A model generated the notes under the pieces. The model saw only the letters and a list, made by a program, of their open reading frames with translations. It searched no databases and was not told the DNA's origin. 64,000 bases of DNA from Chelativorans petroleitrophicus (GTDB lineage: Bacteria; Pseudomonadota; Alphaproteobacteria; Rhizobiales; Rhizobiaceae). This document shows, piece after piece, positions 33,976 through 61,411 of this stretch; positions within the stretch are counted from its first letter, which is position 1, and each line of letters opens with the position of its first letter. The position numbers were made by a program, and so were the translations under genes. Location: contig NZ_JAODNV010000013.1 of assembly GCF_025398195.1 (NCBI RefSeq), forward strand, positions 1 to 64,000, given 5' to 3'.

Positions 33976-34020
33976 ATGAGAACGGTTCTTGTCGCAAAGC
34001 TTTGGTGGTGGGCCCGCTGA
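33976..34020 (+). CDS. trpL: trp leader peptide
   Basis: A 14-residue peptide, MRTVLVAKLWWWAR, with three consecutive TGG codons followed by the stop at 34018. It lies 111 bases upstream of trpE(G). Rhizobial trpE(G) genes have the same type of leader, a short peptide with WWW, which senses charged tRNA-Trp. In Sinorhizobium the attenuated leader transcript and the peptide also have trans-acting roles. No ribosome site precedes the ATG, which fits leaderless translation. Confidence 0.88.
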   Translation: MRTVLVAKLWWWAR

Positions 34021-34131: not shown

Positions 34132-36321
34132 ATGAGCGTGGAAGTCCTGGAAAGCGGAGCCGAACGCTTCGTCACGGCGGGTGGAATCGCAATAACCCGC
34201 ACCCGCAGCGAGACGGCGTATCAGGGTGCCATCGACGCCTATATCGATGCCTTGGACGGGCGCCGTGGCGCCGTTTTCTCCTCCAACTACGAATATCCCG
34301 GCCGCTACACGCGCTGGGACACGGCCATCGTCGATCCTCCCGTCGCCATTTCCGCGCGCGGCCGCGCCATGCGGATCGAGGCGCTCAACAAGCGCGGGGA
34401 GGTGATGCTGCCGGCGATCGCGGCGGCGATTGAGCCCCTTGCCGAGGTCACCATCACCGGCCGTGCCGCGCGCCTTCTGGAGCTTCAGGTGGCGGAACCC
34501 ACGGAGATCGCCACCGAGGAAGAGCGTTCGCGCGTGCCTTCGGTCTTCACGGTGCTCAGGGCCGTCACGCATCTCTTTCATACACAGGAGGACAGCAATC
34601 TCGGCCTTTACGGCGCGTTCGGCTATGATCTCGCCTTCCAGTTCGATCCGGTGAAGCTGAGGCTGGAAAGGCCGCAGAGCCAGCGCGATCTCGTGCTTTA
34701 CCTACCGGACGAGATACTCGTCGTCGATCATTACGCCGCAAAGGCCTGGCACGACCGCTACGACTATGCCGGCCCTGGCTTTTCCACCGCCGATCTCCCC
34801 CGCGAAGGCCGTGTGGAACCCTTCACGCCCGGCACGCAGGTTCCGCCGCGCAGCGACCATGAGCCTGGCGAATATGCAAGGCTGGTCGAGAAAGCGAAGG
34901 AAAGCTTCCGGCGCGGCGACCTGTTCGAGGTGGTGCCCGGACAGATGTTCTTCGAGCGCTGCCAGAGCCGACCGTCGGAAATCTGCCGCCGGCTGAAGCG
35001 GATCAATCCCTCTCCCTATTCCTTCTTCATCAATCTCGGCAGCCAGGAATATCTGATCGGCGCCTCGCCGGAGATGTTCGTGCGCGTCTCGGGACGGCGG
35101 GTCGAGACCTGCCCCATCTCTGGCACCATCAAGCGCGGCGACGACGCCATCTCGGATTCAGAGCAGATCCTGAAGCTGCTCAACTCCAAGAAAGATGAAT
35201 CGGAGCTCACCATGTGCTCCGACGTGGACCGGAACGACAAGAGCCGCGTGTGCGAGCCGGGCTCCGTGCGCGTCATCGGTCGCCGGCAGATCGAGATGTA
35301 TTCGCGCCTCATCCACACCGTGGATCACATCGAGGGCCGCTTGCGCGAAGGTATGGACGCCTTCGACGCCTTCCTGTCCCACGCTTGGGCGGTCACGGTC
35401 ACAGGCGCGCCGAAGCTCTGGGCCATGCGCTTCATCGAGGAGAATGAAAAAAGCCCCCGCGCCTGGTATGGCGGCGCTGTGGGCATGGTGCATTTCAACG
35501 GCGACATGAACACCGGCCTCACGCTCCGCACCATCCGCATCAAGGATGGCATTGCGGAGGTGCGCGCCGGTGCTACCCTTCTCTTTGACTCCAATGGCGA
35601 GGAAGAGGAAGCCGAAACGGAGCTGAAGGCCTCCGCGATGCTGGCGGCCATTCGCGAAGCAGGGAAGACGGATATGGCGGACGAGGTAAGGGCCGCGGCG
35701 AGAGTGGGCGAGGGGACCCGCATCCTGCTGGTGGACCACGAGGATTCTTTCGTGCACACGCTGGCGAACTATTTCCGCCAGACGGGCGCGCATGTGACGA
35801 CCGTGCGCGCTCCCGTCGCCGACCAGATCTTTGACCGCGTCAACCCGGACCTTGTGGTGCTTTCTCCCGGGCCCGGCACGCCGGATGACTTCAACTGCAC
35901 GGCCACCATCCGTAAGTCGAGAGCGCGCGATCTGCCCATCTTCGGCGTGTGCCTCGGGCTGCAGGCGCTGGTGGTCGCCTATGGTGGCGAGCTGCGCCAT
36001 CTGCGCGAGCCCATGCACGGCAAACCCTCCCGCATCCGCATCTCCGGCAACAGCCTAGTCTTTGCCGGCCTGCCGCGCGAGGTGACCGTCGGGCGCTACC
36101 ATTCGATCTTCGCCGACCCGGCGAGCCTGCCTGCATCCTTCACCGTCACTGCCGAGACCGATGACGGGGTGATCATGGCGATCGAGCACGAAAGCGAGCC
36201 GATCGCCGCCGTGCAGTTCCACCCCGAGTCCATCATGACGCTGGGCCAGAATGCCGGCATGCGCATGATCGAGAACGTGGTGGCGCATCTGCCGCGCAAA
36301 GCCAGGGTGAAGGCGGCGTGA
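34132..36321 (+). CDS. trpE(G): Anthranilate synthase, fused TrpE(G)
   Basis: Fusion enzyme of 729 residues, the length typical of rhizobial TrpE(G). Residues 1 to about 515 are the chorismate-using TrpE part ([67 protein letters not shown]). From about residue 527 the glutamine amidotransferase TrpG part begins ([19 protein letters not shown]), with catalytic Cys607 in [11 protein letters not shown] and HPESIMT near the end. It makes anthranilate, the first tryptophan intermediate. GAGAGGGAG precedes the ATG. Expression is controlled by the upstream attenuator. Confidence 0.97.
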
Positions 36322-59417: not shown

Positions 59418-61136
<1,719 letters not shown>

Positions 61137-61238
61137 TCACTCCCGGGCGGCTTCCGGCTGCGGCGAAGCAACCGTCTGCCTGTCAAGAATTCTCTTAGAT
61201 CGGTGCGGGAAGGAGCGGGCCGGTGCTCGCGGCGACAT

Positions 61239-61275
61239 CGATCGCCGGGTGCTCCTTCAACGGACCCGGCGATCG
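61239..61275 (-). promoter_or_regulatory. Hairpin downstream of the leu leader
   Basis: On the minus strand a perfect 12-base-pair stem forms between CGATCGCCGGGT (61264-61275) and ACCCGGCGATCG (61239-61250) with a 13-base loop that contains the leader stop codon. An alternative long-range pairing, AAGGAGC (61251-61257) with GCTCCTT (61210-61216), uses the loop of the first hairpin, so the two are mutually exclusive. No T run follows either, so termination may be Rho-dependent or the effect may be on translation. Confidence 0.6.
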
Positions 61276-61376
61276 CCGATAAGGCCGAGAAGAAGGAGGC
61301 CGGAAGCAAGCGCGTGCGCCGCCGCGCAGGGGCGGGCGGTGGAAGCATAGCCGACGCAGCGTGCTCTCGTGATCAT
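61257..61376 (-). CDS. Predicted leucine leader peptide of leuA
   Basis: A 39-codon frame starts at ATG 61376 and stops at TGA 61257, on the leuA strand, about 120 bases before leuA. Residues 26-34 are GLLLLGLIG: four consecutive Leu codons (61298-61287), a Gly codon, and another Leu (61281-61283). They are followed within about six bases by the 5' arm of a 12-base-pair hairpin. The layout matches ribosome-mediated attenuation. No ribosome site precedes the ATG, but a good -10 box ends six bases before it, implying a leaderless message, as for trpL. I do not know a published name for this peptide. Confidence 0.7.
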   Translation of the reverse strand: MITRARCVGYASTARPCAAAHALASGLLLLGLIGDRRVR

Positions 61377-61382
61377 GGCGGC

Positions 61383-61411
61383 TTGATAGCGAAGAGGTGG
61401 GCGTGTTGCAA
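61383..61411 (-). promoter_or_regulatory. Predicted promoter of the leu leader and leuA
   Basis: On the minus strand TTGCAA (61411-61406) and TATCAA (61388-61383) are 17 bases apart. Six bases separate the -10 box from the leader ATG at 61376, the same spacing as at trpL, so transcription would start at or next to the A of the start codon. Confidence 0.6.

Follow-up and report, generated by a model that had tools for sequence, protein, structure and literature searches.

A predicted leucine-responsive leader upstream of leuA in Chelativorans petroleitrophicus and other Alphaproteobacteria

leuA commits carbon to leucine. In enterobacteria, leuA is preceded by the leu leader (leuL; Rfam Leu_leader, RF00512), which combines a leader frame carrying Leu codons with competing stems; the control codons of leuL are CUA. 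The actinobacterial LEU element also has a leader frame containing a Leu run ahead of leuA. According to the passages of PMC1262725 that concern it, this element is defined by a pseudoknot and a base stem, pairing between the Leu run and the leuA Shine-Dalgarno sequence was proposed, and Streptomyces work at odds with classical attenuation is cited. In the Alphaproteobacteria, the trp leader of S. meliloti is described as leaderless in PMC10117765, a source that also refers to ribosome-profiling and start-site data for this species, and a passage of PMC1273637 cites Vitreschak et al. 2004 for an ilvB leader peptide. Among the matches listed, the open-access titles and abstract openings held no description of a leuA leader in Alphaproteobacteria, and the word leuA is absent from the main text of PMC10117765, PMC2965389, PMC2573895, PMC1273637 and PMC4833913. 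An earlier prediction for leuA, e.g. in Vitreschak et al. 2004 or Lopatovskaya et al. 2010, is possible.

We analysed a stretch of 64,000 nt from Chelativorans petroleitrophicus (assembly GCF_025398195.1, contig NZ_JAODNV010000013.1, positions 1 to 64,000), hereafter the window. Its leuA (59418..61133, minus strand) encodes a 2-isopropylmalate synthase of the yeast type (TIGR00970 of NCBIfam, scoring 776.8 bits against a cut-off of 697.4). The features described next lie upstream of it on the same strand. A 39-codon leader frame, MITRARCVGYASTARPCAAAHALASGLLLLGLIGDRRVR, occupies 61257..61376, with its ATG at 61376 and a TGA stop codon at 61259-61257, 123 nt from the leuA start. The frame has a Leu-rich end, GLLLLGLIGDRRVR, and its last residues are SGLLLLGLIGDRRVR. 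The Leu codons (61281..61298) comprise CTC CTT CTT CTC at 61298-61287 and a conserved CTT at 61283-61281. The -35-like hexamer TTGCAA (61411-61406) is separated by 17 nt from the -10-like hexamer TATCAA (61388-61383), which ends 6 nt before the ATG. Stem A:B consists of 12 perfect pairs between arm A (61275-61264), built from the last leader codons, and arm B (61250-61239), and the stop codon sits in its loop. The frame, this stem and the promoter-like pair are all present as described in the first-pass annotation. That annotation had also named a competing second pairing of 7 bp; the pairing exists, but it is 8 bp long, joining an outer 5′ arm GAAGGAGC (61258-61251), which begins within the stop codon, to arm C GCTCCTTC (61216-61209). 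The second stem, B:C, further contains an inner 6-bp hairpin (61230..61247) formed by CGGCGA (61247-61242) and TCGCCG (61235-61230). Folded in isolation, the two window hairpins gave -25.3 and -22.6 kcal/mol, and neither was followed by a T-run. The conservation profile of the genus (16 genomes) marked a block CTTGACAGG at 61179..61187, between arm C and leuA; it is possibly the -35 element of a second promoter, with no clear -10 after it.

Single-sequence folding of the window leader region showed no excess stability over shuffled sequences (z = 0.15), and fold statistics of this kind were therefore left out of the evidence. A generic sigma-70 scan of the same region found no site under the stricter rule. 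Both results make the window alone compatible with chance, so that conservation in relatives decides. A search with LeuA yielded all 16 genomes of the genus, together with 80 named loci that were nearest by LeuA similarity and are not a random sample. A paralog (L002) and a locus with no upstream DNA (L089) were dropped from the 97 loci collected, which left 95: the window, 15 congeners and 79 named relatives. The leader form of the window is present in two Sinorhizobium/Ensifer loci (L033 and L034).

A Leu-rich leader frame was found upstream of leuA in all 95 loci with usable upstream DNA, with a mean of 5.05 Leu among the last 15 codons. When the start was chosen blind to the promoter, the same 95 loci had such a frame, often with a longer start. 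In the N-terminal, stem-free part of the frame, ahead of the Leu run, differences at codon positions 1, 2 and 3 were 0.154, 0.168 and 0.273, respectively (109 pairs). Codons with a single change were synonymous/non-synonymous in 473/416 cases in frame, versus 207/700 and 192/710 in the shifted frames of the same pairs. Comparison among relatives shows the frame to be coding; its translation is predicted. The N-terminal peptide sequence differs between genera. Two leader peptides gave no match in NCBIfam or Pfam, and the leader peptide used as a protein query against 61 genomes of the family returned 5 matches, its own included; because this search loses short peptides, these matches were not used as a distribution.

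The leader favours particular Leu codons. In its last 16 codons (524 Leu codons), CTT accounted for 57%, CTC for 27% and CTG for 10%, so that CUU and CUC together made up 84%; in leuA of the same loci (3642 Leu codons), CTG accounted for 59%, CTC for 24% and CTT for 4.7%. CUU and CUC are presumably read by one isoacceptor with anticodon GAG. Theory on which codons render attenuators sensitive is outlined in PMC1183508, and the bias would fit it; alternatively, a pyrimidine run could be maintained for pairing. The conservation of CUUA could likewise reflect a structural need of the RNA, or its pairing with the Shine-Dalgarno region of leuA, instead of decoding.

The promoter-like pair is shared by most relatives. 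A strict pair (hexamers with TTG and TA, 17 nt apart, the second 6-8 nt before the ATG) was found at 82 of 95 leader ATGs and at 0 of 7342 other ATGs of these loci; the counts are partly selected, because the promoter entered the score by which the leader ATG was picked. The 175 in-frame ATG candidates included exactly these 82, one per locus, and the choice of ATG therefore cannot account for the difference. The strict pair was absent in 13 of the 95 loci. A looser pair (TTGC, 16-18 nt, TA, 5-9 nt to the ATG) marked 84 of 95 loci versus 15 of 7342 other ATGs. The gap between the -10 hexamer and the ATG was 6 or 7 nt in 85 loci, and a Shine-Dalgarno 4-mer preceded the leader ATG in one. This promoter spacing with no Shine-Dalgarno sequence is the layout expected of a leaderless mRNA, whose transcription start we infer from the spacing.

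Both stems were then scored in an alignment (A1) of 94 distinct rows, aligned without regard to structure. Stem A:B was paired in 99.6% of 1128 cells (12 pairs) and showed changes on both sides at 4 of the 12 pairs, one pair being A-U in 44 rows, G-C in 41 and G-U in 9; kinship among the rows inflates these counts. Paired cells and covariation score were above all 500 shuffles, and slid versions of the stem reached at most 52%. The outer part of B:C (AGGAGC:GCTCCT) was paired in 94.7-96.0%, with one pair A-U in 66 rows, G-U in 15 and G-C in 7. The inner part was weaker, with 77.4% of cells paired, and the number of double-changed pairs in B:C was not above shuffles (252 of 500 reached it). Predicted stem B:C is thus well supported, but below A:B. 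The check in relatives that the first-pass annotation proposed was favourable for both the frame and the stems, and its reading of the locus as a leucine leader is supported.

The conserved frame, the compensatory changes in A:B and the promoter pair, taken together, exclude chance as the source of the predicted element. An ordinary intergenic palindrome next to a chance ORF would agree with the unremarkable single-sequence fold; it is contradicted by conservation, covariation, coding signature and codon bias, and is almost certainly wrong.

Intrinsic terminators, defined as a stem with 5 or more U among the next 8 nt, were sought between the leader end and leuA. Scanning with loops of up to 9 nt missed the trp leader used as a control, whereas loops of up to 17 nt, as used here, detected it. 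None of the 95 loci had a U-run terminator in this interval by the scan, where shuffled sequences predict 2.2, and the best B:C stem was followed within 8 nt by at least 5 U in only one locus. In the trp leaders of the genus, a U-run terminator was found in 4 of 4, each upstream of trpE. The window itself contains one of these trp leaders on the plus strand, with its ATG at 33976, the sequence MRTVLVAKLWWWAR, a stop codon ending at 34020, stems extending to about 34095 and a TTTTT tail after the last stem. Its promoter-like pair, TTGCGC-N17-TATGGA, ends 6 nt before the ATG, as in the layout of the leuA leader. The ORF behind it (34060 or 34132 to 36321) encodes anthranilate synthase (trpE; TIGR01815, 1266 bits). 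This genome evidently builds an ordinary attenuator of similar style, from which the leuA leader departs at the terminator. The first-pass annotation had listed every part of a ribosome attenuator except a T-run; the leaderless layout, the frame and both stems hold, but the missing T-run is not a local gap, as none of the 95 loci showed a U-run terminator. Given 0 of 95 against 4 of 4, ordinary attenuation by an intrinsic terminator is doubtful for the leuA leader, and a Rho-dependent or translational output would be needed.

The distance between the Leu run and stem A:B was nearly invariant. By script, 94 of 95 loci had a CTTA whose C lies exactly 8 nt before the first pair of the helix; the remaining locus (L032), inspected by eye, had CTTC at the same offset. 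A ribosome footprint reaches about 12 nt from the first base of the A-site codon, and a ribosome with CUU in the A site would accordingly cover the base of A:B. In partition-function folding of 91 loci, which describes equilibrium and not co-transcriptional folding, the mean P(A:B) was 0.46 and fell to 0.20 when a ribosome with CUU in the A site was masked, while B:C rose from 0.45 to 0.58. Under masks placed 9 or 15 nt upstream of CUU, the mean P(A:B) was 0.46 and 0.51, respectively. In the window, P(A:B) was 0.88 in the free RNA, 0.63 under the CUU mask and 0.98 and 0.95 under the upstream masks, with B:C at or below 0.04 throughout. Because A:B of the window persists under the CUU mask, the family average does not hold for every species.

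The conserved CUU lies so near A:B that a waiting ribosome would open this stem, and the direction of the switch may for this reason be opposite to the classical one. Classical attenuation is the main rival on this point. In that scheme, stalling on the Leu run frees arm A and A:B antiterminates; with leucine, arm A is hidden by the ribosome that has reached the stop codon, and B:C terminates. Three arms with mutually exclusive pairing are indeed the architecture of a three-segment attenuator, and the folding in which stalls 9 or 15 nt upstream of CUU leave A:B intact agrees with it. However, the terminator that B:C would have to form lacks its U-run, as the scans against the trp control indicate, and the outer B arm, too, would lie beneath a ribosome that has reached the stop codon: under a stop-codon mask in the window, neither A:B nor B:C forms. 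We consider classical attenuation of this kind unlikely.

A programmed frameshift at CUU-A that would fuse leader and LeuA was rejected, as CTT-to-leuA distances modulo 3 were even (33, 32 and 29 of 94 loci).

We propose that the leader is a ribosome-mediated RNA element that measures leucyl-tRNA and sets leuA expression, and as a whole this is probably the best explanation of the comparative data. Its parts differ in strength. Sensing of leucine by the translating ribosome is very likely, and a switch between A:B and B:C is likely; on direction, the folding model leads us to lean towards low expression with A:B formed and high expression with B:C formed. Transcription would begin at or beside the A of the leader ATG, as the spacing suggests, giving a leaderless mRNA on which ribosomes would translate the 39 codons ending in the CUU/CUC Leu run. 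The conserved CUU, the last Leu codon of the frame, has its first base 8 nt before the start of stem A:B. With ample leucine, ribosomes would move on to the UGA within the loop and dissociate, and A:B could then close. When leucyl-tRNA is scarce, a ribosome halted with its A site on CUU would cover the foot of A:B, and B would pair with C. The output would probably be a premature end of transcription with no U-tract, most likely through Rho, or else control of leuA translation; the chances of a Rho-type output over a translational one seem about even. The 40 nt after arm C showed only a mild A+C excess (A+C above 50% in 71 of 92 loci). For a Rho output, the model does not account for the RNA escaping Rho while the ribosome stalls.

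A different form of translational control would need no terminator. By analogy with the LEU base stem of Actinobacteria, the Leu run would pair with the leuA Shine-Dalgarno sequence, and a stalled ribosome would free leuA. Across 94 loci, the duplex between the Leu run and the Shine-Dalgarno sequence of the same locus had a mean of -12.6, versus -11.5 for permuted partners, and beat all 20 permutations; means were -11.4 with recoded Leu codons and -8.5 for random leuA stretches. However, a pyrimidine run pairs with any purine-rich Shine-Dalgarno sequence, and permutation leaves relatedness in. The mask of the CUU footprint raised mean Shine-Dalgarno accessibility from 0.30 to 0.46 (up in 63 and down in 12 of 91 loci), but the window value was unchanged by masking (0.27 to 0.26). 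The distance from leader stop to predicted leuA start is also variable (80-246 nt across loci), and this scheme assigns no role to the stem fixed 8 nt after CTT. Pairing of the Leu run with the Shine-Dalgarno sequence is thus a weak hint of translational control, with no effect in the modelled fold of the window, and we regard this mechanism as rather improbable.

Arm C as an anti-Shine-Dalgarno element was rejected: its duplex (-8.1 versus -6.6 shuffled) was too weak, and by reasoning its sign would be wrong.

A covariance model of the window form (R1) found one strong site of 83 bits in its own genome, the next match having 24 bits. In 150 genomes of the order, matches above 80 bits occurred in 5, all of the window's own family, and the others had 23-31 bits. 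In 240 genomes of the class, the own genome alone gave a strong match, and there was one match of 35 bits (L124). The weak matches of 23-35 bits in other families and the 24-bit match in the own genome (L099) were treated as noise. A bacterial-type LeuA (TIGR00973, E≤1e-100) was found in 55 of 61 genomes sampled in the rest of the order.

Outside the family, a second leader form was found. Its frame ends in LLLL[IT]SP or similar (LLLLISP*), and CTT is followed after 8 nt by a hairpin, CCCCUGAG/CUCAGGGG, with the stop codon within the 5′ arm. The 8-nt offset was found in 30 of 34 loci outside the family, and ten other offsets in 3 to 20 loci; hits at 9-11 nt can be sub-stems of one hairpin, and the hits in L151 and L153 look doubtful. 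In 26 rows, 92.9% of stem cells were paired and 6 of 12 pairs had double changes. The CCCC:GGGG foot of the stem was invariant in 26 of 26 rows and lies where it would be covered by a ribosome on CUU. Of 56 second-form leaders, only L216 (1501-1567) reached the threshold of 5 U in the 8 nt following its hairpin, with 5 U. The leaderless promoter pattern occurred in 3 of 56, and leaderlessness therefore looks like a trait of the own family's form. Since the second form has no evident C arm, B:C is not general.

A model of the second form (R2) matched 129 of 150 genomes of the order at E≤0.01. Five genomes of the own family were listed with no R2 match, and the same five had strong R1 matches. 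Of 60 leuA loci outside the own family, 53 had an R2 match on the same strand within 600 nt upstream: 50 of the 55 with a bacterial-type enzyme and 3 of the 5 with a yeast-type one. The second form thus precedes both LeuA types, and leader form does not track enzyme type. The loci with yeast-type leuA behind the second form, L145, L146 and L147, belong to other families of the order; leader and LeuA enzyme seem to have been exchanged there. In the class sample, R2 matched 49 of 230 genomes at E≤0.001, and most genomes of the sample had no match. All 30 class-wide R2 matches that were fetched had leuA downstream on the same strand at 33-417 nt, one of them (L206) being from the own order.

A distant yeast-type leuA locus (L148, 1299-1340) has a leader that matches neither main form: it ends in LRTLRLIGSRRD and has its own hairpin sequence, 8 nt after CTT.

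For the two main forms, the simplest common reading most likely is that the first hairpin is the low-expression state and is opened by the waiting ribosome, and that in the window's family B:C traps arm B. We tentatively suggest, at somewhat less than even chance, that one design of leuA regulator serves many families of Alphaproteobacteria: CUU, 8 nt, then a U-tract-free hairpin opened by a waiting ribosome, with a Rho-dependent or translational output. Under this suggestion, two unrelated stem sequences and two LeuA types would mean that leader and enzyme were exchanged independently.

The distribution also bears on action in trans. The leader RNA or peptide might act mainly in trans, like the trp leader of S. 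meliloti, with cis control of leuA being minor; the trp leader in the window shares the promoter layout, and its S. meliloti counterpart is described in PMC10117765 as a dual-function RNA with a functional peptide. However, the variation of the N-terminal peptide between genera argues against it, and so does the element's staying before leuA: among the cross-checked R2 matches, only G091 was not upstream of a listed leuA. Action mainly in trans is very unlikely.

The leader lies outside the described RNA families as represented in Rfam 15, which gave no match in the window at gathering score and, at E up to 1, nothing over leader frame or stems in 13 loci of the window form and 10 loci outside the family. 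BASRCI27 was considered as the leader in a Mesorhizobium locus (L022) and rejected, since its match of 36 bits is below the cut-off of 59.8 and ends at 1184, upstream of the leader ATG at 1210. It was absent from the three named Brucella/Ochrobactrum leuA loci scanned, which makes it a neighbour and not the leader. The sub-threshold BASRCI27 match in L022 (1042-1184) lies directly upstream of the leuA leader and could represent a dispersed repeat. A leader that occurs in many families and has no match in the family libraries searched would offer a model for how ribosome position could control a hairpin that has no textbook U-tract, and the fixed 8-nt offset and the CUU bias together give sharp predictions for single mutations.

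Among known systems, the predicted leuA leader resembles ribosome-mediated attenuators in its frame and exclusive stems, but it has no U-tract terminator. It differs from enterobacterial leuL in its CUU/CUC control codons, absent U-run, leaderless layout and lack of an Rfam match. Its constant part is the hairpin 8 nt after CUU, in contrast to the pseudoknot and base stem of the LEU element. With the S. meliloti-type trp leader (trpL/rnTrpL/peTrpL) it shares a short frame rich in cognate codons and, in the window, a -10 hexamer 6 nt before the ATG. Unlike the leuA leader, the trp leaders of the genus carry the U-run terminator, are built on Trp instead of Leu and are unrelated in sequence.
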